The position numbers were made by a program, and so were the translations under genes. The notes under the pieces are model-generated. The model made no database searches, was not told the DNA's origin, and worked only from the letters and a program-made list of their open reading frames with translations. A DNA stretch of 60,000 nt, taken from Tubulanus polymorphus (Eukaryota; Nemertea; Palaeonemertea; Tubulaniformes; Tubulanidae). This document shows, one piece after another, positions 7,121 to 36,028 of this stretch. Every line of letters starts with the position of its first letter. Positions within the stretch are counted from its first letter, which is position 1. Location: positions 13,946,275 to 14,006,274 of the forward strand of contig NC_134032.1 in assembly GCF_964204645.1 (NCBI RefSeq). The letters run 5' to 3'.

Positions 7121-7145
7121 TTATATTATATTTTATATTTTACAG

Positions 7146-7369: not shown

Positions 7370-7394
7370 TTATATTATATTTTATATTTTACAG

Positions 7395-7545
7395 TGGAAC
7401 CTATATTAATTGAGACGGTGGAGGATGGTCCGGAGGACGTGAAAGAGGCCATAGACCTCTTTCACTTGAACCTTGGTCCTGTCTTGGACGACCAGCTGGC
7501 AGATCCCGTTCCAGCTGCTGCCTCCCCGGATAGGCGTCCCATGCA
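7395..7545 (+). pseudogene. exon 34 copy 3, truncated
   Basis: Third unit, about 249 bp after copy 2. It follows the exon as far as ASPDRRP and then diverges (MQKAL, stop at about 7556). Confidence 0.75.
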
Positions 7546-7559
7546 GAAGGCCCTTTGAC

Positions 7560-7915
7560 AGCCGCACCAGGAGGCAGCTATATGTAGAGGTGGTGAGGCC
7601 AGACTGTGGGAGGGGGAGGTTCCTCCCCAGGGGAAGCAACGTGTCGGCAGAGAGGAGGTGATCAGTCATGAGGCAGTTCCGGAGGTGGTGGAGCCGGAGC
7701 TTGAACCAGAGCCAGAGCCGGTTGTTGTGGAGGATGAGGTAAGAGGAGTTCCTCCTGCCCCCGTGGAGCCGTTGGCCGCTGCCCCGATGCCGCACCGAAG
7801 TGCGGGTGGTGGCTCGCGGTTCCGTGGGAGGAGCTTCGATCTTCGGATAGATCGAAGGCTCTCCTACAAGATTTAAAATCAGTTTTATTTAGGCGTGGGT
7901 ACAGGGAGTAGATGA
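7560..7915 (+). pseudogene. second broken copy of terminal exon 35
   Basis: Carries VPEVVEPELEPEPEP, the GVPPAPVEPLAAAP segment, VVARGSVG and the terminal 'ggcgtgggtacagggagtag'. A frameshift after VVARGSVGG puts the C-terminal residues out of frame. The first part of the exon is rearranged. Confidence 0.75.
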
Positions 7916-8128
7916 ATCTGGATGATCCAGTAACAAGGTACAGGGTGGTGGAGCGAGAGCTGGAGCCACTTCATGGAGGAGATGCTAGTGGAAGTAAAGG
8001 TGGTAAGAGGAGTTTTCCGCAGAGCAATTAGCTGTTTTTGAATTTCCTCAGCTACAAAATTTCATGCTATTCCAACTGGTTATATTGTATGCATCTGTAA
8101 TTTGAAATCTTATCGTCATTTCAAATCA

Positions 8129-8218
8129 AGATTGAAAGGATGTCACAAGAGTGTCCAAGATTGAAAGGATGTCACTAGTGTCCAAGATTGAAAGGATGTC
8201 ACTGAAGTGTCCAAGAAT
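8129..8218. repeat. three-copy ~28-bp tandem repeat
   Basis: Three units of 'gattgaaaggatgtcac' plus variable 'tagtgtccaa', differing by small indels. Confidence 0.8.
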
Positions 8219-8531
8219 GAATATGCACTGTGTGCATAAGGAGGTTATGTGGAAAAAAAGGATTTACAACCATCGGCAATTTGTATATTCTTTTACAGGC
8301 AAAACTTACAGTGACGGTGTTGGACATGAAAAGAGGCTATCAACATCTTTCACCTGAATTTTTGACCAATTTTGGACGACCAGTTGGCAGACTGCAATCC
8401 TGCTGCTGTCAGTTAGGCGCCCTAGGCAGCGGACCCTCCGGCAGCCGCACCCTGCTGCGCAAAGGTGGTCCCGTCGTGTGGACGGGCGGCTGTGGGAGGG
8501 GGAGTTTTATATTATATTTTATATTTTACAG

Positions 8532-8768
8532 TGGAACCTATATTAATTGAGACGGTGGAGGATGGTCCGGAGGACGTGAAAGAGGCCATAGACCTCTTTC
8601 ACTTGAACCTTGGTCCTGTCTTGGACGACCAGCTGGCAGACCCCGTTCCAGCTGCTGCCTCCCCGGATAGGCGCCCTAGGCAGCAGACCCTCCGGCAGCC
8701 GCACCCTGCTGCACAGAGGTGGTCCCGTCGTGTGGGCGGGCGTTCTGTGGGAGGGGGAATTATGGGAG
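8532..8768 (+). pseudogene. exon 34 copy 4 with donor retained
   Basis: Acceptor tatattttacag before 8532 and donor gtaagc from 8769 are both present. Length is 237 nt against 236 in the main gene. One extra base after RRVGGR shifts the frame, so the end reads SVGGGIMGG rather than LWEGELRE. An extra fragment of the preceding unit's end lies at 8400-8510. Confidence 0.75.
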
Positions 8769-8980
8769 GTAAGCATCATCTCAACATCAATGAGATTTGA
8801 TATTGTACTAACCAGGTGGCGATCGCGTCACCGAAACCACCATGATGGCGATCCCACCATTTACGCCACCAGATGGAAATTTTACGCTTCATTAGCTAAT
8901 AACGAAAATGTTGCAGCCGCCGTGATATTTCAAGGTAAGACATATTCGATTTTAATCAATTAAATCTCGACATCGTCGAG

Positions 8981-15140: not shown

Positions 15141-15273
15141 CTATGACCGATGAAAAAAAACTGTTTCGTTGAACTGCTGGTTACCCGGATACAGGAAGCA
15201 GTTGAAACGTAAATGACCCAGTGAAGCAGTGAACAAACAAGCCTACCTCGTTACTGGATCATTTACGATTCAT

Positions 15274-15741
15274 CTACTCCCTGTACCCACGCCTAAATAG
15301 GACCGATTTTAGATCACGAAGAAGAGCCTTCGATCTATCCGAAGATAGAAGCTCCTCCCACGGTCCCACGGAACCGCGAGCCACCACCCGCACTTCGGCG
15401 CGGCATCGGTCGCTGGACAGAACTCTGTCCAGCGCCGAAACCGGGGCAGCGGCCAACGGCTCCACGGGGGCAGGAGGAACTCCTCTTACCTCCTCAACCT
15501 CCACGACCATCTCCTCTTCTACCGGTTCCGGCTCCGGCTCCGGCTCCGGGACCGGTTCAAACACCGGTTCCGGCTCCAGCTCCGGCTCCGGCACCGGCAC
15601 CGCCTCCACCACCTCCGGAACTGCCACGACGCCGATCTCCTCCCCTCTGCCACCGCGTCGCTCCCCCTCGGGAGGCGCCACACCACCGCGACGAACCGCC
15701 GGACGGCGTCGTCTTCGATGCCGAGCGGTGCGCGTGCCCGT
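15274..15741 (-). CDS. exon 35, terminal: Arg-rich, Glu-Pro-rich C-terminus
   Basis: 468 nt with stop TAG at 15276-15274, acceptor ttttttgcag. Starts TGTRTARHRRRRRPAVRRGG, passes through a Glu/Pro/Val repeat (PEPELEPEP and similar), then VRGVPPAPVEPLAAAP, and ends VLFRRGYRE. A possible alternative donor (GAGGAG then gtaagag) lies inside it, before the VRGVPPAP part. The same gtaagag is kept in the broken plus-strand copies. Confidence 0.75.
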   Translation of the reverse strand, partial: TGTRTARHRRRRRPAVRRGGVAPPEGERRGGRGEEIGVVAVPEVVEAVPVPEPELEPEPVFEPVPEPEPEPEPVEEEMVVEVEEVRGVPPAPVEPLAAAPVSALDRVLSSDRCRAEVRVVARGSVGPWEELLSSDRSKALLRDLKSVLFRRGYRE

Positions 15742-18700
15742 CTGCAAAAAAGAAAACATTCATTTACTAAATGATCGGTTGAAAAGTGATTTTTTACAGA
15801 AAATTTTCGGATCAGTAACCGAGCTGAAATAATGTAACAATATTCTAAAGGGTTAGAAAATAAAGCGAAAAAAAAAATGACGATGGCTCGCTGAAAATGA
15901 AAGTATTATTAAAGAAAAGATATTATAAGTGATTCACAAAAACTGTTCGTGTGAGAGAAATTGACATTCGAAATCAAAACCGAGAGAAATATAAAAAAAA
16001 CATGAGATGATGCTTACCTCCCGTAACTCCCCCTCCCACAGCCGCCCGTCCACACGACGGGACCACCTCTGTGCAGCAGGGTGCGGCTGCCGGAGGGTCC
16101 GCTGCCTAGGGCGCCTATCCGGGGAGGCAGCAGCTGGAACGGGGTCTGCCAGCTGGTCATCCAAGACAGGACCAAGGTTCAAGTGAAAGAGGTCTATGGC
16201 CTCTTTCACGTCCTCCGGACCATCCTCCACCGTCTCAATTAATATTGGTTCCACTGTAAAATATAAAATAGAAAGAAATACATTAACAATCAGGAGAAAC
16301 AATTAATATATCAAGGGCGGATCCAGTCCCCCGCCTTTAATATCTTGAGGTGCCCTCAAGATATTTTAGGAATTTCTTTTTCCATTTTATAAAGAAATAT
16401 CAAGTATTCCCTCATGATGGCTATCGAATAGCCTCGGGCAACAAAATTTCAAAATTTTCTGGGGAGAAACACTTAAGACCCCTTTCATCCCTTCACGAGT
16501 GCTCATGTGCCCTTCAGTAAACCTTCCAAAAATCCTGGCTCAGCCCTTGTAGATTTACAGTGAACCCAGTGTAGCTAGTAATCTCATTAATACAAAATGG
16601 TTGACTTTCCACTTGAAGCGTGATTGATTGCCAATAATTTGTGACATCATCATGCAGCAGAATGTGGGATGCGGAAAGAAGACAATATCAGTCTCCATGA
16701 GTGACAATGATGGGCTGGTTGAGAGTTTAGGTTTGTCGGGACAGGGTTACTACAGTACAGCACAGAAGTAACTAAACATTTCATCATTGTATTGTTCAGT
16801 CACATGAACAAATAAATAGGTGTCATACCATCAGCGAACCATCACTTAACCATCAGTGAACCCCTGCCATAACCGCAAACCATGATTCATGATGATTTGA
16901 AAATAATTCTAAATGGTAGGCATGGAAACTTGTTAAAATTGATCTAGTTCATAAAATGCAGTCTATTTTCTCCGATTCAAATCAGTTCAAGAAGACTTTT
17001 TTGGCAATGCTTCAATAAACAGCGTAAAATGGATGCAAAAACGATGGTTTATTCAGACCGCGCGATTTCACTGGTCGTATTTAAACCAAATTTGATGAGG
17101 TATGTGTTTAAAACAATGAGCGACGTATGGTATATGGAGTATATTACTTAACTAATTACTTACTCACCAAATTACTCAATTAACCTTTTCTTCTCTGTAT
17201 ATATATACCCCTGTTTTTAGTCTCACACCTGACGATGATCTCTAGGGTGAGATCGAAACGTCGTGTCCTTATGTTTTAGATTGTTTCAATAAATAAATTC
17301 TCGATTTTAGAATTCTTTTAATTTTATATTTATTTTTTTGTAAATAAAGTTGGTTTTTATCTTATTAACCCTTTCAGTGCCGACTGATCAATACCCTATA
17401 GTGCTGGAGATAATTTGAAAATTTTGAAAAATTCCGCCCTAGTGTGTTGAATAACGGGAATAGCACTACAGTGCGTCTACACCACGGCGCGGTATATCGT
17501 TAGTTACATTTCTAGGCTGTACCGTCAATAAGACCCGGGGCTTGATGAGGCAGTGGCTGCGTTACTGTGGCAAGCGAGGATCAGCTCGTGGTTACTCCTC
17601 AGTTACCGTGCTTCAATTTCGTCGACACTTCCCGATTGAACTGTAGCCGACTCATCGCTTTATCAATACGCGAAAGTTGCTCGAACAAAAATTCATTTGA
17701 TTATATTTGAATTTTGTAAGCCAAAAAATCGAGTTCGAAAAATAAACTAATTTCATCGCGTATCAACCAGTGTATTTTTGCGCCATCTGGTGTACGCAGC
17801 CAGTACCTTATTCAATGTACATTGAGGATACTTATCTCAACACGAGCGGCGGGGGGGGGGGGGGGGGGGGGATGAAAAATGATGTGATCAGTGGAAAGAG
17901 AGAGGAGAGAGTATAAATGCAAAAAGTTGTACTTACATCGCGTCAAAAAATTAAGTAAATACCGCGGATCCGCGGCGATATTCCGCCTTATTTCTTCGAT
18001 GACTGTAAAATAAATAAATGAGAAAAATTGTTAGTATTTCATTAAATCATGGACGATCAATAGGAGTTTTACGACGTGGACAATACAGTCAAAGTCCGTT
18101 ATACCGCCGCCATACTCCATCAGGAGTGACATGATTTTCGGCATTTTAACGTGCTGGATCCAGTTCCACAAATGAGTTAACTCTGAACTCAGAATCTAGT
18201 TCTACATTTGCGAGAGTTAACACTGAACTCAGAATCTAGTTCTACATTTGCGAGAGTTAACACTGAACTCAGAATCTAGTTCTACATTTGCGAGAGTTAA
18301 CTCTGAACTCAGAATCTAGTTCTACATTTGCGAGAGTTTATTCTGAACTCAGGATCCAGTTCCACAGATGAGTTAGATTTAACTCTGAACACAGAATCCA
18401 GTGCTACAGTTACGAGTTAAAGTTAACTCTGAACTCGGGATCCAGGACCCAGTTCCACAGTTGTGATTTAGAGTTAACTAAATTAATCATCAGTTATCAA
18501 CAGTAAGGCGCTCAGTAACATCTTTCATATTTCTGTTCAAATCAGAGACAAATTCAGTATTTCTTGTCATAAAATGGTAACACATACCGAAAAATCAGTA
18601 ACAGTTTGGGCAGCTCTGCTAAAAATGTCTGGCTACAAACGGACATATCTAAAATAGGATCATCAATATGTGTAGACTTACCATTTTCCGTCGCATCGAC

Positions 18701-21700
18701 GGCGGCTGCGGCAGCTGCATTTTCTGCCTATAATATAATAACAATCATGATGTTAAGGTTTAAGAAAACAACAAAAAACTTTGTCAAAATTTATGCAGTT
18801 TCTAAAAGCGTTTCGATAACACGAATCGTAATTAGAGAGATAATGGGGCTAATTCCCTATATGAAATCAAAAGCTGAAAGAGAGCCTGCAAACAAGAGCA
18901 TTTCAAGAGCTCAACTAATGCAGCGCAAAGTTTCCAAACAAACCAAGAAATCACAATTTCAAAGTTTTTCTTGATTTCTTGTTATAGTACATTCGCCGTT
19001 TATGTATAGCAGTTCCGGTCCATTGGATAATCCTTTCATTATCGCTTTCATGAAATTTGAATAGTAGGGAACTGGCACGCCAGCTATCCCTTCAGATGGC
19101 ACCGCTTAGGTATGTGAGACAATCTAATGGGACAGAAAGTGAATTTCACAGACGTCGTCTGTGCGACAAGAAGTCATCAAATTAGAGCATCGATATTTTG
19201 TCGCGCATCTCTTATTGTATTAATAGTGAGCACTGGATCATATCATTACGGTTAAAAATACCCGACTATTTGATATCTCTAATTTGAGTAGTTTTCACCT
19301 GAATATATGACAACGCAAGGGCTCTAATAACTTACTCTTCGGCGTCTCAGCCGCGGCGATCGCCTCAGCGGCGGTATCTCGTCTCTCTGGAAAAAACAAA
19401 ACAATCAACATTGATTAAATCATCGAAACATTAGATGATTTCTTACTGATTGGAGAATTCGGTATCAGAATAGCTCGGTAGGACCAGAGAGATTCAGGGA
19501 TTCTATATGTGAATAGCTCGGTAGGACCAGAGAGATTCAGGGATTCTATATGTGAATAGCTCGGTAGGACCGGAAAGGTTCAGGGATTCTACATATGAAT
19601 AGCTCGGTAGGACCGGAAAGGTTCAGGGATTCTACATGTGAATAGCTCGGTAGGACCGGAAAGGTTCAGGGATTCTATATGTGAATAGCTCGGTAGGACC
19701 GGAAAGGTTCAGGGATTCTATATGTGAATAGCTCGGTAGGACCAGAGATTCAGGGATTCTATATGTCTTCCTGTTCATTGACGTGTCAGTAATGATCAAC
19801 ACATTCAGTGTATTTGATGCATTATAATTATTTTCACTTATAGTTCAAACTTACATCAGCTTGCGGCGGCGGCGGCGGCGGCGTCGCAGGTGTTTCAGTC
19901 TAAAAAGTAAAAAAACGATATTTCCATCGGTTATAAAAAGATGAAAATGATTCATTTCAACTTAACATAATAAAACTTGGTTCCACAGTTCAGGACCCAG
20001 TCCCACAGTTACAGAACCTGCCTCCGCAGTACTGTTCTGGACCCAGTTCCACAGTTCAGAGTTATGATCTACTAAAGAGTTACAGATGCTGGATCCTAGT
20101 TTTCCAGCCAATGATATTCAGTTAGTTCCGTGCGCTGGTCATCAAGCCGATTGTCATAAATTTCTAGATCTCTCCCTGTCCCGCCGCCCCAGAATTAGGT
20201 ATTTTTACTTTTTTTTGGTTTAGATTTTTTGGTGCCACAAGATCCAAAGCAGAAGAATTCTACACTATTTTAATTCTTTTTCCGATGCAGATTTTGAAAA
20301 CAATAAAATATCCTCATAATCATTGGTGAACCACAATGATAATAATCTACATGACTTAAAACAGGAAATAATGGTCAAGTCTTCATGAATAACCATGAAC
20401 TGTGGGTGCAGAGACGCGAAAATCACTTGAAAAGTGGTTCGAACGCTCGGACAACTGGAAACATTTAAAAATTTGTCAGTTATTACCATAGTTTATCATT
20501 GTTACAATGGAGGTTGTCACCTATGTTGAGGATTTACCGCTAGGGGCAACATTGAAACCCGGTCTATGAAATCGGGCCACGGTTGAGGATTTACCCCTAG
20601 GAGAAAATAATGTGGTCTATAAAACCCTGCCCAGATTATCGAACTTAAAATGATTTGACGCAAATCAAACTTACTTTAACCGGTCCGATGCGTGCCCGTT
20701 TAGGGCTAACGGGGTCCTATAAAATAAAAACAAGTTGAAATCAACATCCAGAATTTTCAAACATATTTCTGAAGGAAATCTCAATTTCATATTATCTTAA
20801 TAATCTTTGGTGAGCCACGAAAATGATAATCTACACAACTAAAAAATGGAAATGAATAATCATGAACTGCGGGTGCAGAAACGACAACACCACTTGCAAA
20901 AAGGGCTTCAACAAACTCTCCACAATCACAAATTCAGAGGCACGTACTACCATCGCGAAAATCTTGTGCCATTTTTTCCATTCCCAAAATAGATGTTCAA
21001 GCCATTTGGAAAGTGGTTTTTTTTCACATCGACAAACTCTCGTCGCAATCACAAATCATACTTGTCGTAAGCTTAAACTTTCACAAGATCCCGTCGGCAG
21101 GCGGACAGACGGAGAGACAGGCACACAGACGGAGAGACAGGCACACAGACGGAGAGACAGGCACACAGACGAACGGACTGTAAAATGATTTGATGAAATT
21201 CAAACTCACCGATGCCGGTACCTTGAGCTTCCTCTTCTATAAAATGAAAAAATCAACTTTAGTTTAACGACGTCAACAAAAATTCAGACATATTTCATCT
21301 GCAGTCGTTTGTGTTCAACTGTTAATTCAATAGAAATGTTCACAATATTTACCGGCACATTCACGCACGTGTGGAATTCATTTCTCTACATAAAAAGAAA
21401 AACAAGAGCTCAATTTAGCATTTATGAAAATCAGAATAAATTATCTCAAATCTCGCATTTTTTTAATAGCTTGGTTGACAAGGTAGACTATTGAAATATC
21501 ATTTCCATATCATTTAAAAAAAAAAGAACTCGCTCAGCGCGATAAACACAGTTTTTGAAGGAAGAGGGAACTATCGATTGGGCAATATACATATGTCCAA
21601 AACAATGATCCTTGGAAAGTTCGAATTCTGCACACAAATGTGATCAAAAAAGAATAAACGTGTGTTTTTCAATTTTTCCATCATTCAAGCCGGGATTCTC

Positions 21701-24700
21701 ATTCGGCGAAGGTGAAAACTTTTTTGCTCGTTTTCCACTGAATTTGTTCCACGGATGGGAGTAAAAAAAAATTCTATTTTTGTTTGACTTTTCTTCAAAT
21801 TTCGGGAGGCGGTTCCCGTAAACCAAGCTATTATAGAAAAAGCCTCATCTGGTGAACCATCAAAAATAGTTATTATTACGTTATAGGTTGTTACTAATGA
21901 TCGGATTTATGAGAACCACAACGGTATAGTGTACATTATGGAATAAAGTTCAAGTTTTTGTCAGTAGATGGCAGGCAGGTGGTATTTATAAAGTGACTGG
22001 GTGTCAACATGTGTAACTGAAATTGTCTATTGAAAACTTACGTCAATTTGCACAATACGCGCGATTTCCGATTCCTAGAAATGTAAAGAAAAAAAATTCT
22101 GAAATCAAGTTTTGAATAACTATACCACGGATGAAAGATTCCATGATCTAAATTCTTAGTTGACCCTCGCTTTAGAGACTATTTTGAGGATAATTGAACC
22201 GATGGATGCTGCGCGACATGATTTCAATATTCTACTAACTCGGTCTGAAGAACATTCACATCGATACAAAACTGTGACCGAGCCGCAACTTTTAAACATT
22301 CTTAGTTTCACTTAAAAACATTGCTTCACGCTATTATCAATACCAATTTTACGAATAATATGAACTCGGTAAGATGAATATTCGCATCGATACAAACTGT
22401 GACCGAGTGCGACTACTTTCAAACACTCTTTAGATAATACTGGATTCAGCTGCGATTAATTTAGGACCGAAGATACTATTGTACATAGCTTAATCAGTAG
22501 CGGATCCAAACTAGATTCCATTGTATTCCGGAATATAGTCGGAATAACATATTTTTTTTTAAAGTAACTCGATCCAACAGAATGTCCCAGATACAAGGAA
22601 ATTAGATCATATTTCAAAATTTTTAATGGTTAGGACCCCTAAACTGCGGCAGCTGCAGCGGTCAGTCAGGCAAAAAATATCTTTAAGGAATATAGCCAAA
22701 TTCACCAGTCCCCCACGGAACTGCCCCTAAGTAATGACATTTTAGAATTGAACCCATGATACCGTATAGCGGCTGCAAACAGATCGGTCACAATTACCAG
22801 TGTTTATGTTTTCGAACAACAAATAAGCTAGCAAAAACTAGGTGCCTTTAGCCTACGAGCAAAATTGTTGAGCAAAATTGTTCGTAGCTTTAGCCAAGTT
22901 TGACCTTGGTGGAGATATGCTATGGGATCTCTTAGAACATGGATAACCTAGGGCGAACTCTTTTATCAAATCGGAGAATCCGTTTGCCTCCAGTCGTACT
23001 CTTTTATTGGTCACGTGACTTGTTGGAGTCTCCGAAAACTCCTTTCTGTCGAGGTGGTGTGATTCGGATTTTTTGGTGCCAACCGAAGATTTCGGACGGA
23101 GACTTCGGAGGTCATAAAAGAGTACGCCCTTAGGGATATTTCAGCAGGAAAATCAATATCAGATTATAATTATCTGGTAAACTACGAAAATAATTATCTT
23201 TTACAACTTACGATAATGGTAGGAGCCTCGGGCTCCGGCGGCGGCGGCTCTGGGAAATCATCATTCTAGTAATCAAAATGAAATATCATGAAAAATTCTA
23301 GCTAACCCTAAAAGCAAGTATATATGGAGCCACCCATTAATGAAAGGGATGGCTCCAAATTCACTGAGAACGAGTAGGCGATCAAAAGGATATTTACCCA
23401 AAGGTCGTCGAATAAGTTGATGTCCTATAAAAAAGAATACAAAAAATTTATTACGATAAAGTATACTTATGTTTTTGGTAAATGACGCTTACTGATCACA
23501 AGTGACATATGGTCACGATAGTATCACAATTGCTTGCCGGTGAGGCTAGGCGTTCACCAGAGCCAAGTTTCATAGATGTTGGGAAAAAATAATACCAGCT
23601 GGGATCATTTCGAAATTTTTCAGTTATTACCAAGGTTTTCATTATGAAGTTATCACCTATGTTGAAGATTTACCTATAGGCAACCAACACGGCTGCCAAC
23701 CTCTGAAAAGTGCTATCGGTAACAAATTGTAATATGAAAGTAAATGTTCAAATCAATCAGTAATCAACAGTAAGACCCTCAGTTAGATCTTTCATACTTC
23801 TCATATGCATCGAACAAATCAAATCAGTATTTCTTGTCATAAAAGAGTAACAAATACCGAAAATCAGGAACAGTTGGCAGCTCTGGGTAACATTCATATC
23901 CGGTTTACAAAATCGGGCTCAGGTTGAAGAAATACCTCGAGGGTATTATTGATATACAGTCTATGAAACAGGGCTAAGGTTATCAATATTTAACATCGAT
24001 ATCGAAAATGATTTAATGAAATTGAAACTTACCTCCTCGCGCCGAATTTTCGGCGGGCTTACAGGTTGCTGTAAAATATTTTAAAAAAAGTTGAAATCAA
24101 CATTCAGATGTTGATACACATTTCTTTAGTAAATCTCAACTTTCAGATAGTCGTAATCTATAGTGAACCACAATGATAATAATCTACACGACTTAAAACA
24201 GGAAATAATCGTCAAGTCTTCATGAATAACCATGAACTGTGGGTGCAGAGACGTGAACATCACTTGGAAAGTGGTTCCACCGACGCTCGGACAATCGGAC
24301 TTTTTTCAATATTCAAAAACCAACATACAGAAACCAATGACCTTTAATGTCGCCACAATCATAGAACATGTCGAAAGCATAAAACTTACGACCACAAGTC
24401 AGCACAACAAGATCCTGTCTACAAGACAGACACAGACAGACACAGACAGACACAGACAGACACAGACAGACACAGACAGACCGAGGGTAGACCACTTTTT
24501 TCCCTGATTTTGTAGTATTAAGAATTTATAAATCCCCTGTGTTTTCCAGGATTTTGGTAAAAATCTATCAAATTCCCCAATCTTTCTGATTCAATGAGAT
24601 TGCCAGGTTTTCTAGGACATTAGCACCCTTGAATTGCTGAACAATGCTTATACCACTGGCGATTGTGAGATCCTATCTATGGACGAAAAGACAGATTGAA

Positions 24701-27700: not shown

Positions 27701-30700
27701 TTCTAATGCTTTTTTTTTCCTTTCCCTCTGTAAAAGAAAAGAGAATTCATTTATTTAGTTTTGTTATTTCAGACTCAGTAACTGTGTGACCTAAATCCGC
27801 CTGTAATTATTCGATAGAATTTACTTACTTCCATTTTTCTCTTCTCTTTCAGAGTCTATAAAGTAAAAACGATTCAATTAAATTTTTTTTCTATTTTCAA
27901 GAGTGATGAGAGTAATCAACAATAGAAATTTCAGCGACCTTAAACCAGAAATTATTGTGTGATTGTTTGGTATCAGCTGAGCTGTTAAAATGAGCAGAAA
28001 CTAAAACTTAGCAAAGTGGCAACAACTGGAAGACAGGTAGAGAATGTTGCAGTCTTCGTAAAAAACGACAGAGTTTACTTAATTTGTTATCGACTTCGAA
28101 AGAATTAAGCTTAGCCGTCTTAAAGCGAAGTTTCACGGGAATCCATCGAGAAATACAGGGCAAACTTTGGTTTTTTCGTAGCTAGTCGACCAATGGTTGG
28201 AAATCACTGAACGCGCAATAGCTCAGTCGAAACATATTCCAGCCATCTTGGAATCATGAAGTCCAAACTACAGCGACCGTGCTCAGTCGATCATTTCTGA
28301 CTATAGTTATAACTGACATTCTGTTGCACTTAGTTCACAAATAGTCGACTAAAAACTGCGATAACCAAAGTTCGTCCCGGCTGTGACGCGCTAAAAAGAA
28401 ATTCAAGATGGCCGCCGATGACATCCTTCAATAGGGGTTAACGTGTGCCCTATATCGCACCGAGGATTGCAGGCTGGATGATGCTGGGACTGCACACACT
28501 GAGTAAGATTAGATGGCCCCCACAACCGAAGAAACATTAATATACTCTCATATTTTAGTTGTCATAATCAAGTATGGATATTATTAACACTATTATTCTT
28601 ACCTCCTGCGCGACGAGTCGGTCGCGTAGTTCGTGGGCGTACTCGTAGCAGTTGTCAACTGCTACTTTCGGCCCACGAACTACTACAATTGGGTGTACCC
28701 TCGGCGTATCTACGATCACTTGCTGTAAATAGAGAACAAAAGAATCTGTATGAGCATTTTAAATCAGTAGCAGTTTGAAAGTGATGAGAAATAAACGTCA
28801 TTCACTGAAAGCTCGTTATGTACAACAATGAATTTCAGTAATCTGTTCGTTTATAATCGATATGAAATTATTAAAATGTTTTATTTTGGACGGAATTCTC
28901 AGGTTTATAATAAAACTAACAAATAGTTAGATAAGTCGTTATATCCAAAGTCATTTTAACGTGAAAGTAATGAATTGAATACAAAATGTATAGAGCATTT
29001 TAACCCTTTGACTGTTTAATTTATGTAATTAAAGTGGCTCCCCCTAGGGTAAGCTGCACTTCCTTTGAAATCAATCTTTCTCACATTACCGGATATTTTC
29101 TTGTCAGCGTTTTCTGGAACGAGGCCCTGAGCGACGTCCCCAACTTTAACTCGAAAACTGTTTCGATTTCCTGAAATATAAATGAAAAATTTTACATCTC
29201 CATAAATATCAATTAGAGGAAAACTGAAAGAGGTGTTTATTGACACCTTGAATGACACATGAATTGCTTGTCAACGATTGATGATATATGAATTAATCGG
29301 GGTCCAATTCTGTATTTTCCTTTCATAGGAATGAAAGTTACGAAAGCAGTGTTGTCGTATGTCAGTTACATCTTTATTCTTCAAGTTCTCCGTGTTCCTG
29401 TTCCGTCCGATGAGTCGGGGTAGTCAATCAGTGTGACTACTAGCAGGATCAATAAATATATGTTGATTTTGAATATATCGATGATTGAATTGAACTGACC
29501 GGCAAAATCTCTAGTCTCCAGCCCCGATATATCAACGAGGTAATACCGGTACACAAATGTCTATTGTCAATAAGACATATATAAAATTTATCGAACAGAA
29601 AACATACAGAATGAAATATGTTATATTACAAAATGGATAAGCGAACATTCACAATTGTAATTATTTTGAAATGCTCCAATATTGACATCTTCACCCGTCA
29701 AAGGATTCGAACCCACTACGCTAAAGCTGTTCCCCGAACCCCTTGACCTCACGAGTCGTTGGAGTCGTTACTAGCCGACCAGAATCCGGTCGTACCAATC
29801 ACAGCGCTTGTAACAAACCGTCAGTAGACTTCTGTTGGTTTTCCCGTTTAATGGACCAATCAGCGAACGTTTTACCGAACAAGGAAGTATTTCGCAAATC
29901 GATATATGACGTCACACGCAACAGCGCCAGTAATGAAATCACGCTTCGTGAGGCCAGGGGGCTGGTGGAAGCGAGTTCGGGAGTGAAACCGGACCCCTGG
30001 CAAGCGAGGATGCAATATTGATGACGTAGCACACATTGACTCACACAAAACCATAGGCGTCCCCGAGGGGGGTGCAGGGGTAGCGGACCCTCTTCAAGAT
30101 AGCTAACTTCTCAAGTTAACATGTAATCAATGTTCAAGATTTTTCTTGCCAATTTGACTTAAGTCCTTTAACTCTAAATGATTCATTTAGAGCCTGGAAA
30201 ACGTCTCTAAAGCGTCAAATTTAAAAATTGTTTTTGGGGGAGGCCCCCCAAACACCAGACATTGTGCTTGGATGCTTGATTGATGCTTATTCGAACCCCT
30301 TATGCAAATTCCTGGGGATGCCTATGAGAACCTGTTAAATAACGCACAGGTATGAATGTATATGAACATCTTTGTAATTCCGGTTTTTACGGCATCAAAA
30401 AAGTTGCGATATTTGCTTCGCTATTAACACTCCCGTTAAATTATACAGTCGAATTACTTAAGCTCATCTCTTACAGTTTTCACTCTATGGAGCTCGAAAG
30501 TTTCTATTGATTTTCCTACTTTTATGTTGACAATGATGGGCACTCTGAGGGTTTTTTTTTTATCATCTCTTACAGTTTTCACTCTATGGAGCTCGAAAGT
30601 TTCTATTGATTTTCCTACTTTTATGTTAACAATGATGGGCACTCTGAGGGTTTTTTTTTTTTATCAAATCACCCGTGAGTGCTGAAAGAGTTATGCCCTT

Positions 30701-33700
30701 GGATGATATATACCGGGAGGAGGGTTGATACGACGTGGCTCCTTAACTCATTTCCACCCAAACACGTACTCGTATGTTCGTTATCTCCCATCACATTCCT
30801 GTCAAAACCGTACTGGCAAAATGGTTGGCTTGTTTCTTAACTCAAAACCGTACTGATACGGTTGGCTTGTTTCTTAACTCTAAACTGTACCGATACGGTT
30901 GGCTTGATTCTTAACTCAAAACCGTACCGATACGGTTGGCTTGTTTCTTAACTCAAAACCGTACTGATACGGTTGGCTCGTTTCTTAACTCAAAACCGTA
31001 ATGATACGGTTGGCTTGATTCTTAACTCTAACGATAGATGGCGAATTCATCGCACAACACCAGTTAGTTTAATGCCTTTTACTACTAAACAAACTCATCA
31101 GTTGTTCTATACAGTGTGCGAGTGACATCATCTATTGAAATGGGGGCTGAACACGCATATATTCTGCAAAATACTCCCTCTGCACTGGTTATCGCTACAG
31201 ATTTTATCACTCTTAGACGAAATGCCGCTTATTTTACATGAAAATGCAAGACTAGATCAAAGATACAAAACAAATTTGATGAGAAGATATCTCTTCTAGT
31301 TTTTGTTTTATGAATCTCTGAAAAACACGGAAATCCTGGCAAAACGCAGCATTTCCTAAAAAAAATAGGCGTGGCAGGAAAAGAGTTACGAATTTTTTTC
31401 ATTTATATTCCCGCTTTTTTTTCTCATATACCCTAATTATTCATTCGCCTTAAGCCCGCCGCACCCGGCATAACATTTGTTTCGCCAAAACAGAAAACAC
31501 ACTTTTCAGAACACGTTTTGCCCACAAACAATAAAATGTTCAACGGACACGACATATTGCTGTTCGGCGTTTTGTGTTTTGCCTTCCCCGCACACGGCAT
31601 AACAAACAACAGGCTTAAACCTCATGTACTAACACAGTACAAATTATTTTCATCTCAAGTCTCAACATATTACAATTGATAACCAGCCAACAGAACGGAT
31701 ACATCTAAACTTACTTCGATGTCTGGGGACGCCAACTTGGACCTCGTTCCAGTGTGATGCTGTAAAAGAATAAAATTCATTAATACAAAGCCTAGGAATT
31801 GGTAAATCGACCTTCGAAAAAATCATCTTTTTTTGCAGAAAATCTACCAGGCAAAAGAAAAAAGCGAGTCGGAATCTATTCAATCGTTGCGCTTATGAAA
31901 ATCAGCACCAGTTTATGGGCATAAAAATGTGCGCCAAGAATTGAATTTGATGACCAATACAAATAAACCAAAAATAGACAGGTTTGATATCTGTAACCGA
32001 ATTGGATTTAGAGCCGCTTTTTTCAGGTCAAAAACGATAAGTTACGAAGGGAATCGAACTCTGATTAAATTCTGTAACTTTGATGATAATTCTGATGAAA
32101 AACTCATTAGAATCGGTTGTTTCAAGGTAACAGAAGAATTTATACTTACTGCCTTTGCTGCTGTTTGTTTACGCTGATGACATGAAAGAAAAAAAGAGAA
32201 TTCATTTTAGTTTTGTTATTTCACGTTCACACGTTAAATACAGTAAATATAAATACATCAATAAAAGAGATACATAAAATATATGCACATATATCCGTGA
32301 GCAAATGCTTCCAGATTTTACTGTGTGTGCTAATATTATATTAAAAAAACTTGATTTTAAAATAATTCTAAGTGACGGGAATTTATTTCATTGAAAGCAG
32401 GATTATTTTCATGACTTTGTTCCCGGTATGAAATATACGATGAAAATCACAAACAAATCATCGTCTGTCAGAAAGAAATAAACACCACAGAAATTCCATG
32501 ATACAAAAAACTTCTCACTTACCTCTGGTGCTGGTGCTGTTGTCGTCGTCGCTGAATTCTGTCGCAATAAAAAAAAGAAGAGAATTCATGAATTTCTTGC
32601 ATTATTTCATATTCACTAGCAAACATTAAACACAGGAGATCATATTATAATTAAAACAAAAGACAAGTTTTACATCTGTATTTGGAAAAACCCTGATATT
32701 TCTGTATTCGTTTGTTTGAGGGTTTTATTTAAACAATATAAAGTCCATTAAACAGAAAAATTCAAACTTACTGTATTTGTCGCTGTTGGTCTGTTCTGTT
32801 GCAATAAAAGAAAAGAGAATTCATTAATTTCTTGCATTAAAACTCTGATCTCTGTAACTTTGATATTTCTGTATTCATTTGTTTTACAGTTTGATTCAAA
32901 CGATATAGAGTCCATGAAACAGAAAAATTCAAACTTCTGTTGCTGCTGCTGCTGCTGCTGCTGCAGCAAACTGTCGCGATGAAAGTATAGTAATTAATTG
33001 CGTTGTTATTTCATATTGAGTAGCACACATTTAACAGAGATCATGATTAAAACGAATACCAGACAGGTTTAATATCTGGAAAAAGATTTCATCAGAGTAA
33101 ACTTGTTACAATGAGAGAAAACAAAAAACACCACGCGATAAATCAGTTTGATAATTCCTTTCATCGGGATATTTGCACTTTAAAAATGACAATTGTAATT
33201 ATTATCATTACTATTATCGTTATTACTACGAGTTTGATGATAATTATGAACTATACGTGCAAATATAAGCGTATGTGTAAGTGATCGCGCGCACAAATTG
33301 AAGACGAAATCAGTTGCAACTCGCTTAAAGAGTTATGAAGTTTCAATGACTCTCAGCGATAATGGTAGATATCATATTCCACCGAGGAGATTAATAGAAA
33401 ACTTACATTCACAAAATGTATTTCCGCTTCTACTGTAATCTAGAAAAGAGAATTAACATTCATATCTATAAAAATCATTCATTAAATGATCAATGAATCT
33501 AAGCGCCAGTTTTATGGAGACCAATGTTTACTTTAATAAATCTGGGTTAACTTGATTAAAAGTGAATTCAGTTAACTGAGCACGGGTTAAACATAATATC
33601 AGTCTAACCGGCTTCAGAGGACCAGGTTAAACAAAACAGGTTTATATAAAATGATATCATGAAATTGAAACTTACTGGCGGCGGAATTTCCTCCGGGACT

Positions 33701-34655
33701 TCTGGCTGTTAGAAAAGAACAATAACATTCACATTCAGGTCAAAATCGATAAGTTACGAAGGGTATCGAACTCCGATTAAATTCTGTAACTTTGATGATA
33801 ATTCTGACGAAAAACTCAAAAGAATCGGTTGTTTCAAGGTAACAGAAGAATTTATACTTACTGCCTTTGCTGCTGTTTGTTTACGCTGATGACATGAAAG
33901 AAAAAAAGAGAATTCATTTTAATTTTGTTATTTCACGTTCACACGTTAAATACAGTAAATATAAATACATCAATAAAAGAGATACATAAAATATATGCAC
34001 ATATATCCGTGAGCAAATGTTTCCAGATTTTACTGTGTGCTAATGTTATATAAAAAAAACTTGATTATAAAATAATTCTTAGTGACGGGAATTTATTTCA
34101 TTGAAAGCAGGATTATTTTCATGACTTTGTTCCTGGTATGAAATATACGATGAAAATCACAAACAAATCATCGTCTGTCAGAAAGAAATAAACACGACTA
34201 GAAATTCCATGATACAGAAAACTTCTCACTTACTTCTGGTGCAGCTGTTGTTGTTGTCGCTGAATTCTGTCGCAATAAAAAAAAAAGAGAATTCATGAAT
34301 TTCTTGCATTATTTCATATTCAGTAGCAAACATTAAACACAGGAGATCATATTATAATTAAAACAAAAGACAAGTTTTATATCTGTATTTGGAAAAACTC
34401 TGATATTTCTGTATTCGTTTGTTTTAGGGTTTTATTTAAACAATATAAAGTCCATTAAACAGAAAAATTCAAACTTACTGTATTCGTCGCTGTTGGTCTG
34501 TTCTGTTGCAATAAAAGAAAAGAGAATTCATTAATTTCTTGCATTAAAACTCTGATCTTTCTGTAACTTAGATATTTCTGTATTCGTTTGTTTTACAGTT
34601 TGATTCAAACGATATAGAGTCCATGAAACAGAAAAATTCAAACTTCTGTTGTCGT

Positions 34656-34694
<39 letters not shown>

Positions 34695-36024
34695 AGCAGC
34701 AGCAAACTGTCGCGATGAAAGAAAAGTAATTAATTGCGTTGTTATTTCATATTGAGTAGCACACATTTTTAATCATGATTAAAATTGAGATCATGATTAA
34801 AACGAATACCAGACAGGTTTAGGTTTAATATCTGGAAAAAGATTTCATCATAGTAAACTTGTTACAATGAGAGAAAACAAAAAACACCACGCGATAAATC
34901 AGTTTGATAATTCCTTTCATCGGGATATTTGCACTTTAAAAATGACAATTGTAATTATTATCATTACTATTATCGTTATTACTACGAGTTTGATGATAAT
35001 TATGAACTACACGCGCAAATATAAGCGTATGTGTAAGTGATCGCGCACACAAACTGAAGACGAAATCAGTTACAACTTGCTCAAAGAGTTATGAAGTTTC
35101 AATGACTCTCAGCGAAAATGGTTGATATCATATTCCACCGAGGAGATTAATAGAAAACTTACAAAATGAATTTCCGCTTCTACTGTTATCTAGAAAAGAG
35201 AATTAACATTCATATCTATAAAAATCATTCATTAAATGATCAATGAATCTAAGCGCCAGTTTTATGGAGACCCATGTTTACTTTAATAAAATCTGGGTTA
35301 ACTTGATTAAAAGTGAATTCAGTTAACTGAGCACGGGTTAAACATAATATCAGTCTAACCGGCTTCAGATGACCAGCTTAAACAAAACAGGTTTACATAA
35401 AATGATATCATAAAATCTAAACTTACTGGTGGCGGAATTTCCTCCGGGACTTCTGGCTGTTAGAAAAGAACAATAACATTCACGTTCATTAGAATTATTT
35501 GAAAAATAAGCATCTGGGGGCGGTTGCACGTCAATCGAGTCTTAAGTCCGAAAGTGGTCTTAAATCATAAGACTGGTCTTAAGTTGTTAGATTGGCTATA
35601 GAACCAAGTTGGTCTTAGACTGATCTTAAGTCTAAGCCCTGACTATGGAACCGGCCCCAGAAAATGTTTGTTTTGAATATTGATTGTAACATCAAATGAT
35701 AACCGGTCCCGGGTTCAAATCCACATTTAATTAAATATTCAATCTGTATCCTGGATGGTTAGTGAGGTGGAGATATCTTAACGGAGGAGTGGACGGTATC
35801 TTTGATGGGTTGGTATGAACGCCAACACCAGGGGGAGTGGGGGCGGGGTATTTAAATCTAGCTCCGATATATCAATGAAATACTGCGCACTATCTCAAAA
35901 ATATCGATGACGTAGTGCACATCTACTCAGGTAAGTATATTAGGTTTATCAATGTATATACAGACATATTATTGGAACAAAAAAAAAAATGAATACTTAC
36001 TATCTGCTTTCGTTTTGGAGCCAT
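15274..36024 (-). CDS. 35-exon micro-exon gene; basic, Ala/Pro-rich protein with two KH-like segments
   Basis: I do not recognise this gene. The model was built by pairing minus-strand acceptors (mostly ttttacag, ttttatag, ttgcaacag, ttctag) with donors (nearly all gtaag; gtcag at exon 23, gtgag at exon 28, gtaatg at exon 13). Exons 1-31 are all multiples of 3 in phase 0. Exons 32-35 join in phases 1, 1 and 0 with no stop. Predicted length is about 662 residues. The order is: N-terminal PKRK; an Ala/Thr/Pro block present twice (residues 9-54 and 55-103); KH-like segment A (119-185); Lys-rich 186-203; poly-Ala microexons 204-257; basic SP-type motifs 276-391; KH-like segment B (407 to about 465); an Arg-rich and then Glu-Pro-rich tail to 662. 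The many basic clusters suggest a nuclear protein that binds nucleic acid; this is inference. No poly(A) signal AATAAA is visible in the ~150 nt after the stop, and no TATA box upstream of the start. Some microexons could be alternative or skipped, and the exon list may be incomplete. Confidence 0.72.
16018..16253 (-). CDS. exon 34: second half of KH-like segment B plus Arg/Pro linker
   Basis: 236 nt, acceptor attttacag, donor gtaagc. With the base from exon 33 it reads L then EPILIETVEDGPEDVKEAID, LFHLNLGPVLDDQLA, and an Arg/Pro-rich linker ending LWEGELRE. The order strand (ILIETV), G-P-x-D-V-x-x-A helix, LNL resembles the last half of a vigilin KH domain. Four plus-strand copies lie at 6.9-8.8 kb. 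Confidence 0.8.
17165..17310 (+). mobile_element. possible retroelement 3' tail
   Basis: Contains 'cctgacgatgatctctaggg' followed closely by 'gagatcgaaacgtcgtgtcc' and a short AT-rich end. Tails of this kind recur at the 3' ends of invertebrate retroelements (recalled pattern). No open frame upstream. Confidence 0.3.
17365..17530. mobile_element. partial copy of the TTAA/CCCTTTCAGTGC element
   Basis: Begins 'ttaaccctttcagtgc' and shares the next ~150 bp, inverted, with the complete element at 37954-38247. The far terminus is not seen. Confidence 0.65.
17846..17871. repeat. poly-G run
   Basis: About 22-24 consecutive G after 'gagcggc', in intron 33; the length may be an assembly estimate. 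Confidence 0.9.
17937..18002 (-). CDS. exon 33: first half of KH-like segment B
   Basis: 66 nt, acceptor attttacag, donor gtaag. Reads VIEEIRRNIAADPRYLLNFL then TR, and leaves one base for exon 34. The same exon length and phases are kept in the copy at 10572-10637. Confidence 0.78.
18172..18475. repeat. 38-bp intronic minisatellite
   Basis: Units of 'gagttaactctgaactcag' plus 'aatctagttctacatttgc' in intron 32: five good copies, then two or three degenerate ones. Confidence 0.9.
18682..18727 (-). CDS. exon 32: AENAAAAAAVDATEN
   Basis: 46 nt, acceptor tattatag, donor gtaag. Leaves one base that pairs with exon 33 to give Val. Confidence 0.72.
19336..19386 (-). CDS. exon 31: RDEIPPLRRSPRLRRRR
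   Basis: 51 nt, acceptor gttttttccag, donor gtaag. Last of the phase-0 microexons. Confidence 0.72.
19456..19770. repeat. ~45-bp intronic minisatellite, about 7 copies
   Basis: Units of 'tgtgaatagctcggtaggac' plus 'cagagattcagggattctat' in intron 30. The 10.2-kb paralogue has the corresponding sequence once only (10195-10235), so the array grew after the duplication. Confidence 0.9.
19855..19899 (-). CDS. exon 30: TETPATPPPPPPQAD
   Basis: 45 nt, acceptor ctttttag, donor gtaag. A CCG run encodes six Pro. Confidence 0.68.
20265..20500 (-). repeat. shared intron core
   Basis: Minus-strand copy of the sequence described at 9960-10260, between exons 29 and 30. Confidence 0.7.
20675..20716 (-). 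CDS. exon 29: DPVSPKRARIGPVK
   Basis: 42 nt, acceptor ttttatag, donor gtaag. SPKRAR combines a Ser-Pro site with a basic run. Confidence 0.7.
21096..21178. repeat. 26-bp intronic minisatellite
   Basis: Units of 'acagacggagagacaggcac' in intron 28, about three copies. Confidence 0.8.
21210..21236 (-). CDS. exon 28: KRKLKVPAS
   Basis: 27 nt, acceptor ttttatag, donor gtgag. KRKLKV is a strong nuclear-localisation-type cluster. Confidence 0.65.
22042..22074 (-). CDS. exon 27: ESEIARIVQID
   Basis: 33 nt, acceptor catttctag, donor gtaag. Confidence 0.62.
22949..23133. mobile_element. ~185-bp inverted-repeat element (MITE-like)
   Basis: Left end 'agggcgaactcttttat' and right end 'ataaaagagtacgccct' are inverted copies with one mismatch in 17. 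It lies in intron 26 and has no coding capacity. Confidence 0.75.
23212..23265 (-). CDS. exon 26: NDDFPEPPPPEPEAPTII
   Basis: 54 nt, acceptor gattactag, donor gtaag. Confidence 0.65.
23398..23424 (-). CDS. exon 25: DINLFDDLW
   Basis: 27 nt, acceptor ttttatag, donor gtaaat. An acidic/hydrophobic peptide that stands out from the basic neighbours. Exon and phase fit; the donor is weaker. Confidence 0.55.
24033..24068 (-). CDS. exon 24: QPVSPPKIRREE
   Basis: 36 nt, acceptor ttttacag, donor gtaagt. It resembles exon 29 (DPVSPKRARIGPVK), and both have the shared intron core nearby. Confidence 0.72.
24420..24482. repeat. cagaca-type microsatellite
   Basis: Tandem 'cagacacagacaga' in intron 23. 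The homologous intron of the paralogue has 'ggtcggtc' and 'tgtctgtc' at 52736-52800, so the tract is conserved in place but not in unit. Confidence 0.85.
24741..24773 (-). CDS. exon 23: VTRKRRRSVDE
   Basis: 33 nt, acceptor ttttatag, donor gtcag (non-consensus at position 3, but also used in both paralogue copies). RKRRR is a nuclear-localisation-type cluster. Confidence 0.72.
24955..24984 (-). CDS. exon 22: CSQTVTTTKE
   Basis: 30 nt, acceptor catggcatcag, donor gtaag. Paralogue copy at 54231. Confidence 0.7.
25246..25269 (-). CDS. exon 21: KPTASPKE
   Basis: 24 nt, acceptor attgcaacag, donor gtaag. Related to exons 18-20 at its start. Confidence 0.7.
25546..25593 (-). CDS. exon 20: KPTPTATAAAAAIPAR
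   Basis: 48 nt, acceptor attgcaatag, donor gtaagt. Third member of the exon 18-19 family. The intron between it and exon 19 carries an extra ~0.7 kb (25.74-26.46 kb). Confidence 0.7.
25740..26470. other. ~0.7-kb insertion within the exon 18-20 repeat
   Basis: Sequence absent from the homologous introns. It contains two 'ctcaagccgcccg' motifs near 26018-26060, a G12 run near 26263 and a 'gggattcgaaccc' tRNA-B-box-like motif (minus strand) near 26095. Its ends carry 'ccattagcactca' (26010) and 'tgagtgctaatgg' (26472) in inverted orientation. Confidence 0.5.
26567..26599 (-). CDS. exon 19: QKPTAAAIPAR
   Basis: 33 nt, same splice sites and flanking introns as exon 18, ~300 bp away: a recent exon-plus-intron duplicate. 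Confidence 0.7.
26865..26903 (-). CDS. exon 18: QKPTAAAAAIPAR
   Basis: 39 nt, acceptor ttattgcag, donor gtaagt. A second acceptor three bases in (cagcag) could drop the Gln. Confidence 0.7.
27432..27473 (-). CDS. exon 17: MKATAAAATTAAAF
   Basis: 42 nt, acceptor tttatggcag, donor gtaag. GCA/ACA repeat. Confidence 0.65.
27701..27727 (-). CDS. exon 16: RERKKKALE
   Basis: 27 nt, acceptor cttttacag, donor gtaag. Strongly basic. Confidence 0.65.
27829..27855 (-). CDS. exon 15: TLKEKRKME
   Basis: 27 nt, acceptor ctttatag, donor gtaag. The fused paralogue copies at 48.6-50.2 kb continue with a related sequence (TEKIREKED) without an intron. Confidence 0.65.
28603..28722 (-). CDS. exon 14: second half of KH-like segment A
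   Basis: 120 nt, acceptor ctatttacag, donor gtaag. Begins QVIVDTPRVHPIVVVRGPKV, followed by AVDNCYEYAHELRDRLVAQE. The pattern strand, turn, strand, RGPK, VD-x-C, helix LRDRL matches the C-terminal half of vigilin-type KH domains (strand, G-P-x-x-x-V, helix). This assignment is from memory of the family; confidence about 0.45 for KH, higher for the exon. Confidence 0.8.
29010..29085. other. conserved 3' flank of exon 13
   Basis: The ~75 bp after exon 13's donor (ttgatttcaaaggaagtg..., ending at 'taattaaagtggctcc') is kept in both plus-strand exon 13 copies (51404-51480 and 52178-52255). This shows duplication of exon plus intron. Confidence 0.7.
29090..29170 (-). CDS. exon 13: first half of KH-like segment A
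   Basis: 81 nt, acceptor ttatatttcag, donor gtaatg. Starts EIETVFELKLGTSLRASFQK and ends TLTRKYP. The hydrophobic strand (VFELKL), then the G-T-S-L turn and the following helix (LRASFQKTL) sit where the strand, GxxG loop and helix of a KH domain would. The canonical GxxG is not kept. If the donor is not used, a TGA follows two codons later. Confidence 0.7.
30053..30327. mobile_element. ~275-bp inverted-repeat element
   Basis: Ends 'cataggcgtcccc' and 'ggggatgcctatg', inverted with one mismatch. In intron 12. Non-coding. Confidence 0.65.
30463..30660 (-). repeat. 100-bp direct duplication containing an exon-like open frame
   Basis: Two nearly identical 100-bp units inside intron 12. On the minus strand each has ccctcag, an open stretch reading VPIIVNIKVGKSIETFELHR plus VKT, and then gtaaga. 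The open stretch would be 1 nt plus 23 codons, so it does not fit the phase-0 pattern. It is not included in the model. Confidence 0.5.
30805..31030. repeat. ~37-bp minisatellite with internal dyad
   Basis: About six units of 'aaaccgtaccgatacggttg' plus 'gcttgtttcttaactc'. Each unit carries the palindromic core accgtaccgatacggt. Confidence 0.9.
31715..31759 (-). CDS. exon 12: HHTGTRSKLASPDIE
   Basis: 45 nt, acceptor cttttacag, donor gtaag. It leads directly into KH-like segment A. Confidence 0.7.
32150..32173 (-). CDS. exon 11: RKQTAAKA
   Basis: 24 nt, acceptor catgtcatcag, donor gtaag. Confidence 0.7.
32523..32558 (-). CDS. exon 10: NSATTTTAPAPE
   Basis: 36 nt, acceptor attgcgacag, donor gtaag. 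Confidence 0.7.
32772..32795 (-). CDS. exon 9: NRPTATNT
   Basis: 24 nt, acceptor attgcaacag, donor gtaagt. Confidence 0.7.
32936..32970 (-). pseudogene. shorter CAG-repeat exon-like segment, donor lost
   Basis: Counterpart of 34641-34706 with about 9 triplets. Acceptor tcgcgacag is present; the donor position reads agaagttt. The frame runs open as poly-Gln towards exon 9, probably by chance. Confidence 0.45.
33407..33439 (-). CDS. exon 8: ITVEAEIHFVN
   Basis: 33 nt, acceptor cttttctag, donor gtaag. Six nt longer than exon 3 at its 3' end. Confidence 0.68.
33676..33705 (-). CDS. exon 7: PEVPEEIPPP
   Basis: 30 nt, acceptor tttctaacag, donor gtaag. First exon of the second copy of the N-terminal block. 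Confidence 0.7.
33862..33885 (-). CDS. exon 6: RKQTAAKA
   Basis: 24 nt, acceptor catgtcatcag, donor gtaag. Identical peptide in exon 11. Confidence 0.7.
34234..34266 (-). CDS. exon 5: NSATTTTAAPE
   Basis: 33 nt, acceptor attgcgacag, donor gtaag. Duplicate of exon 10, differing by one codon. Confidence 0.7.
34479..34502 (-). CDS. exon 4: NRPTATNT
   Basis: 24 nt, acceptor attgcaacag, donor gtaagt. Same peptide as exon 9. Confidence 0.7.
34641..34706 (-). pseudogene. CAG-repeat (poly-Ala or poly-Gln) exon-like segment, donor lost
   Basis: A clean acceptor (tcatcgcgacag) is followed by TTTGCTGCTGCTGCA and then a CAG/GCA run of about 14 triplets. Where the other exons have gtaagttt, this copy reads gaagttt, so no donor is visible. 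The copy at 32936-32970 has the same defect. Read in the acceptor's first frame it is poly-Ala; the next frame gives poly-Gln. Confidence 0.5.
35163..35189 (-). CDS. exon 3: ITVEAEIHF
   Basis: 27 nt, acceptor cttttctag, donor gtaag. Duplicated as exon 8, which keeps two more codons (VN). Confidence 0.65.
35427..35456 (-). CDS. exon 2: PEVPEEIPPP
   Basis: 30 nt between acceptor tttctaacag and donor gtaagt. A near-identical exon 7 lies 1.75 kb downstream. Confidence 0.7.
35514..35660. mobile_element. ~147-bp MITE-like element
   Basis: Ends 'ctgggggcggttgcac' and 'atggaaccggccccag' are imperfect inverted repeats. The inside is full of 'gtcttaag' motifs. It lies in intron 1. Confidence 0.7.
36001..36024 (-). 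CDS. exon 1, start: MAPKRKQI
   Basis: ATG at 36024-36022, donor gtaagt after 36001. A ttttctag acceptor precedes 36028, so an upstream non-coding exon is likely. PKRK resembles a nuclear localisation signal. The start is chosen as the only ATG in this exon in frame with the phase-0 downstream exons. Confidence 0.65.
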
Positions 36025-36028
36025 ATTT

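Follow-up and report, generated by a model that had tools for sequence, protein, structure and literature searches.

A candidate multi-copy family of modular micro-exon genes with predicted 3′ hairpins in Tubulanus polymorphus

A stretch of 60,000 nucleotides of the Tubulanus polymorphus genome (C8:13946275-14006274, hereafter the window) carries, on its minus strand, a candidate gene whose coding region consists largely of very small frame-neutral exons and which has relatives on several other contigs. We propose that it belongs to a functional multi-copy family whose protein is largely of low complexity, probably nuclear, and modular by virtue of its symmetric exons, and we put the probability of this proposal as a whole at about 70%. 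The genome searched comprises 268 Mb in 77 contigs and, given that the whole-genome searches scored the best candidates only, all family counts below are lower bounds.

The gene was read directly, scanned and joined, and it runs from an ATG at 36024 to a TAG at 15274. Its 38 candidate exons join to 2121 nt, or 706 residues and a stop, in a single open frame. An earlier note on this DNA had given 35 exons and about 662 residues; its coding chain stands but its counts do not, and the figure of 662 is by arithmetic what the 706 would shrink to without exon 4 (63 nt), exon 10 (36 nt) and a single 33-nt exon. The description of the exons as symmetric, in phase 0 and multiples of 3 holds in the joined minus-strand frame for exons 1-34, which measure 24-120 nt and account for 1305 of the 2121 nt, and the joined frame also bears out that the last four (46, 66, 236 and 468 nt) switch phase and still join in frame.

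All exon positions that follow are on the minus strand, and exons were placed by the scan and the joined frame unless other evidence is named. Exon 1 (36001-36024, 24 nt, MAPKRKQI; also read directly, and identical in the C9 copy) begins 4 nt after a splice acceptor (36024-36028). The same arrangement, with the acceptor 3-4 nt ahead of the start codon, recurs in the genes of both subfamilies, A and B (see below), that were read (for B at C6:1162266), and points to a spliced leader or to a non-coding first exon at the 5′ end. Exons 2-7 form a module of about 1.7 kb, present twice in the window gene and three times in its paralogue on C9: exon 2 (35427-35456, 30 nt, PEVPEEIPPP), exon 3 (35163-35189, 27 nt, ITVEAEIHF), exon 4 (34644-34706, 63 nt, poly-Ala/Thr), exon 5 (34479-34502, 24 nt, NRPTATNT), exon 6 (34234-34266, 33 nt) and exon 7 (33862-33885, 24 nt, RKQTAAKA). 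The second copy consists of exons 8 (33676-33705, 30 nt), 9 (33407-33439, 33 nt), 11 (32772-32795, 24 nt), 12 (32523-32558, 36 nt) and 13 (32150-32173, 24 nt), recognised also by their intron flanks as copies of exons 2, 3, 5, 6 and 7, respectively, together with the poly-Ala exon 10 (32935-32970, 36 nt). Exons 4 and 10 were placed by reading and the joined frame; both have a good-looking acceptor and a weak donor, GTTTGA, which makes their use doubtful. Reading through either of them meets a stop one codon further. They could be off-switch exons or dead, and may simply be skipped; because they are symmetric, the frame of the gene does not depend on their use.

Exon 14 (31715-31759, 45 nt) precedes an intron holding a dispersed repeat (30052-30330) that recurs at 82-89% identity at no fewer than 30 places on C1-C10. 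Exons 15 (29090-29170, 81 nt) and 16 (28603-28722, 120 nt; placed by genome search rather than by the scan) encode the first and second halves of a vigilin-KH-like segment, identified by profile comparison. Next come exons 17 (27829-27855, 27 nt), 18 (27701-27727, 27 nt), 19 (27432-27473, 42 nt), 20 (26865-26903, 39 nt, QKPTAAAAAIPAR), 21 (26567-26599, 33 nt, QKPTAAAIPAR) and 22 (25546-25593, 48 nt), the last two supported by intron flanks as well, then 23 (25246-25269, 24 nt), 24 (24955-24984, 30 nt) and 25 (24741-24773, 33 nt), the last of which stands out in composition by its basic run, VTRKRRRSVDE. The remaining symmetric exons are 26 (24033-24068, 36 nt), 27 (23398-23424, 27 nt), 28 (23212-23265, 54 nt; placed by the joined frame and a genome search that found it at nine or more places), 29 (22042-22074, 33 nt), 30 (21353-21385, 33 nt), 31 (21210-21236, 27 nt, KRKLKVPAS), 32 (20675-20716, 42 nt, DPVSPKRARIGPVK), 33 (19855-19899, 45 nt) and 34 (19336-19386, 51 nt). 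Exons 35 (18682-18727, phase 0 to 1) and 36 (17937-18002, phase 1 to 1) rest on the joined frame, exon 37 (16018-16253, phase 1 to 0) on the frame and a genome search; their counterparts in a subfamily B gene on C6 measure 76 nt with the same phases, 66 nt and 230 nt. Exon 38 (15274-15741), placed by the joined frame, genome searches and a structural model, contains the stop and a conserved C-terminal domain (15277-15441). Elsewhere in the window lie two satellite-like arrays, one of about 40 copies of a 53-bp unit (55993-58100) and one of about 32 copies of a 29-bp unit (45537-46468).

That this gene is real and under constraint is, from comparison of its sequence with controls and with a paralogue, almost certain. 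At one splice threshold the minus strand between 36100 and 16300 yields 28 symmetric open exons, against none on the plus strand of the same stretch, 0-2 per strand in three control stretches of the window, and a mean of 1.08 and a maximum of 4 in 100 block-wise dinucleotide shuffles. The paralogue on C9 (C9:956001-982000), with exons placed by alignment to those of the window gene, joins 43 exons to 2295 nt with its sole stop at the end. Among indels shorter than 100 nt between the two copies, all 11 of those in exons have lengths divisible by 3, compared with 16 of the 92 that fall in introns. Read in the correct frame, the pair has a dN/dS of 0.30 (bootstrap 0.19-0.46; likewise 0.30 on a slightly smaller codon set); the value is 0.33 in exons 1-34, 0.22 in exons 35-38 and 0.25 once low-complexity exons are removed. 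The two wrong frames, interrupted by 28 and 23 stops, yield 0.48 and 2.35. These values point to a reading frame under constraint. Exons do not evolve more slowly than introns overall, given 84 differing sites in 2079 and 577 in 17307, and dS (0.088) exceeds the intron divergence rate, an excess to which misaligned copies of the repeated modules may contribute.

The lack of exon slowing, together with the broken partial copies in the window at 6.2-9.0 kb and 48.5-54.7 kb, is what one would expect of dead segmental duplications in which a formerly coding gene is copied passively. We regard this as highly improbable, as two copies are open across 38 and 43 exons; the frame-preserving indels, the open frame on C9 and the dN/dS value appear largely to refute it.

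The gene described in the earlier note is upheld, but it does not stand alone. Exon 16 has at least 15 matches, at least 11 of them at E <2e-18, on C8, C9 and C11, and the last domain has at least 59, of which at least nine are 96-100% identical (one on C8, two on C9, six on C11). Exons 16, 28, 37 and 38 and a hairpin termed HP2 occur together at the same nine or more places on these three contigs, which we call subfamily A; two of the nine genes, those of the window and of C9, were read whole. In subfamily B the C-terminal domain is 43-49% identical to that of A. At least 34 of its last exons are ≥98% identical to the C6 query (10 on C3, 18 on C6, 6 on C8) among at least 88 matches in all, several with stops, and pairing of two genome searches places an exon 37 counterpart within about 2 kb of 32 of the 34 (10 on C3, 18 on C6, 4 on C8). 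The one B gene read whole, on C6, has nine exons of 63, 90, 39, 27, 39, 76, 66, 230 and 393 nt, encodes 340 residues open to the stop, and shares the phases of its last four exons with the window gene. A B-type last exon at C8:15155402 was rejected as a whole B gene, since no further B exon was matched in the 17 kb read, and is regarded as a partial copy.

The arrays lie at 0.42-1.33 Mb on C3, 0.65-1.75 Mb on C6, 0.95-1.58 Mb on C9, 0.38-3.01 Mb on C11 and 13.95-16.3 of 16.68 Mb on C8, so that none of them is more than about 3 Mb away from the nearest contig end. Among nine contig ends examined, a CCCTAA array was found at the left end of C9, none at seven, and one reads N. Weak, broken family fragments occur at 7.76 Mb on C8 and 13.48 Mb on C11, the latter (C11:13481501-13482400) a solitary C-terminal-domain fragment with stops near the far end of the contig. 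Ten weak exon 37 matches in a tandem array on C12 (3294218-3340615; E 0.02-0.06) were not counted as family members because the frame is unclear in the stretch read, which holds a charged, coiled-coil-like open reading frame downstream of an exon 37 match.

Partial copies also occur within the window. On the plus strand, sequence comparison finds tandem inverted, truncated copies of the 3′ end of the gene, some with stops (6192-8963), and a rearranged partial copy (48540-54660) made up first of diverged exon 15-16 units that lack the intervening intron, a frame break or stop interrupting some of them, and then of pieces resembling exons 25, 26, the 20-23 type, 24, 25 and 26 in changed order. 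Inverted exon 37 fragments are likewise found about 6-7 kb past the gene ends on C9 and C11 and are therefore apparently part of the duplicated block. The C9 copy can be aligned to window positions 15064-39552 as a series of collinear pieces, 90-98% identical and separated by gaps, so that this copy, if no other, was made inside a larger duplicated segment.

The origin of the many small exons can be followed in their introns. Comparison of the flanking introns alone, 120 nt on each side of every exon, by single linkage, in which some links are weak, joins 15 of the 38 exons in one group (4-7, 10-13 and 18-24), exons 2, 8, 26, 31 and 32 in a second and exons 3 and 9 in a third. Duplication that carried the introns along thus gave rise to many of the symmetric phase-0 micro-exons and, because all units are symmetric, every gain or loss preserved the frame, as seen in the 38 exons of the window gene and the 43 of its C9 paralogue. 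It had been suggested that the skipping of any subset of such exons could give many isoforms; the gain and loss of units between paralogues would be the evolutionary counterpart of that idea, with the isoforms themselves being predicted only.

The 706-residue protein is rich in Ala (15%), Pro (12%), Glu (11%) and Arg (11%); it contains 108 basic residues, 104 acidic ones and 4 Cys. The motif K/R-K/R-x-K/R matches nine times, with overlaps, at seven places. The earlier impression of a nuclear protein is plausible on account of these basic runs and the few cysteines, and we consider a nuclear location probable, but the most hydrophobic stretch, a poly-Ala run that spans roughly residues 25-43 when exon 4 is included, could also serve membrane targeting. 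A Pfam search of the protein gave no convincing family.

Outside the family, the best genomic match of exon 16 is a gene on C7 (E 0.03), which we take to be vigilin (HDLBP) from its KH repeats. Against a profile of four repeats of this gene, the exon 15-16 segment scores 13.1-14.6 bits in three gene-like sequences, 11.2 in one diverged copy and 7.3 in another; the top score among 2000 shuffles, 7.7, exceeds that of the most diverged copy. An hhalign comparison of exons 15-16 with the vigilin repeats gives P 7.9e-07 at 14% identity, the likeness lying mainly over the second half of the KH domain, and the intron between the two exons matches, by eye, that of the C7 gene in position and phase. 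Unlike vigilin, the protein has a single such segment rather than many, the GxxG loop is missing from the alignment of exons 15-16 to the vigilin repeats, and Pfam KH gave no match up to E 10, with filters that drop most matches above about 0.1. Because of the missing loop and Pfam match we call the segment vigilin-KH-like and do not call the product a KH protein. A PDB sequence search for a relative of exons 15-16 gave nothing convincing.

The 3′ end of the gene codes for a conserved domain: the C-terminal 55 residues are predicted to be helical, though by a model of no more than fair quality (pLDDT 73.0 for the best of five and 58-66 for the others; pTM 0.46). Its Pfam matches are weak (best E 0.0088, to DUF6508, in 4 of 7 members) and a PDB sequence search gave nothing convincing. 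With the C-terminal part and the subfamily B domain as queries, no convincing relative was found among the best candidates scored in 5.8 billion proteins. The 234-residue C-terminal part gave one match (E 5.6e-6, 8000 candidates scored), a peptidoglycan-associated lipoprotein that we take to be a low-complexity match, and the B domain gave one candidate and zero hits. A vigilin exon of the same genome, used as a control query on the same database, found 102 hits among 105 candidates; exons of this kind are hence represented there, which suggests, without proving, that the family is narrow in distribution. Among the papers listed by a literature search, no title or abstract beginning pointed to an account of such a family.

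The best-known micro-exon genes belong to schistosomes and aphids and are secreted or host-facing (PMC4350168, PMC9168663). In schistosome micro-exon genes (MEGs) the coding region consists mostly of very small symmetric exons, and every product is said to carry a signal peptide (PMC4350168). The window gene shares this exon architecture. It does not seem to fit the schistosome genes as described there, in that its protein has, judged by composition only, no evident signal peptide, starting with MAPKRKQI and carrying basic runs, yet also the poly-Ala stretch; it is also set apart by its KH-like segment and its long 3′ hairpins. Aphid bicycle genes are described as having internal exons almost all of phase 2 and many products with signal sequences and CYC motifs, and megacycle as having over 100 micro-exons (PMC9168663). 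The many micro-exons of a single phase are a likeness here too, but in the window gene exons 1-34 are of phase 0; the string CYC is absent from the 706 residues. By that account, the window gene is not a bicycle gene.

A secreted, host-facing product would suit the small symmetric exons, the several copies and the poly-Ala stretch close to the N terminus. We nevertheless judge it very unlikely, in view of the basic start and runs, the scarcity of Cys, the differing phase (PMC9168663) and the dN/dS of 0.30, set against values above 1 reported for the mature parts of three schistosome MEGs (PMC4350168), a comparison that is not like-for-like because ours is between paralogues and theirs between species.

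Both subfamilies carry one hairpin in the last exon and one across the stop codon, alike in place and differing in sequence. In the window, HP2 (15187-15288, minus strand) spans the stop and folds at -63.3 kcal/mol (z -8.5); its counterpart on C9 has z -8.8 and the different-sequence hairpin across the stop of the B gene on C6 z -7.5, with 0 of 200 shuffles as low in each case. HP1 (15347-15484, minus strand) lies inside the coding part of exon 38, with z -7.2 in A and -7.9 in B against shuffles, and is below all 1000 synonymous recodings in both (z -4.8 and -6.2). Its apex falls on homologous codons (LDRVL in A, LAKKL in B), where nine pairs share one register and three have changed on both sides.

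Hairpin-RNA loci and ampliconic families of Drosophila are multi-copy genes with long hairpin transcripts. The family described here resembles them in its copy number and in predicted long hairpins beyond chance, and differs in that its hairpins sit in a coding exon and over a stop codon. One could accordingly place the hairpins at the centre, with Dicer- or Drosha-type cutting yielding small RNAs that restrain the amplified family in trans and the protein secondary or dual-coded. The folding statistics and the paired changes in HP1 argue for this, as does the distribution of HP2, whose A sequence was matched, among the candidates scored, only at the nine or more gene ends, with half of it at a truncated copy, and whose B sequence matches only within the B arrays among 40 of 48 candidates scored. 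Beyond the apex, however, the HP1 registers differ, so that just 9 pairs are common to the 64 of A and the 55 of B, and the longest perfect stem of A (10) is equalled by 157 of 1000 recodings, that of B (20) by none. HP2 in the window has a mismatch where C9 pairs, two copies on C11 break a pair, and B copies carry unmatched changes, two diverged ones folding less well. Strong folds are also not rare in this DNA, with 460 of 17276 windows below -40 kcal/mol, the hairpins included, palindromes can persist through template-switch repair, and an Rfam search of the window found no match. On balance we consider a central role of the hairpins quite unlikely.

The palindrome at the gene end and the many copies might also indicate a large mobile element that carries the gene and has the hairpins as its ends. 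This seems scarcely credible: the C9 alignment continues well past the gene, HP2 sequences were matched only at family gene ends among the candidates scored, and the Pfam scan of the 706-residue protein gave no transposase-like match.

We therefore return to the reading of a functional, modular family. Under it, the micro-exons would serve as interchangeable units setting the length or valency of a disordered chain, which would join a degenerate vigilin-type KH segment to the C-terminal domain, and the same units may also be varied by splicing. The protein would act in the nucleus with RNA or chromatin. Both 3′ hairpins would probably act on the message, through stability or small-RNA processing; this is the least certain step, and small-RNA processing is the boldest reading of the sequence. 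A fuller version, rather improbable in our view, is of a family amplified near chromosome ends with a dual-coded last exon, in which a conserved domain and two hairpins over the same codons and stop persist despite strong divergence between A and B, each copy giving rise to a modular nuclear protein as well as to a hairpin RNA that could regulate the whole family.

If the proposal is right, 34 frame-neutral exons in a probably nuclear protein, many of them visible duplicates, would mean that the micro-exon architecture can arise for another purpose than those best known. With paralogues of 38 and 43 exons and a B gene of nine, the growth of this architecture would be observable within one family, and its amplification near contig ends together with the paired 3′ hairpins would make self-regulation of the family directly testable.
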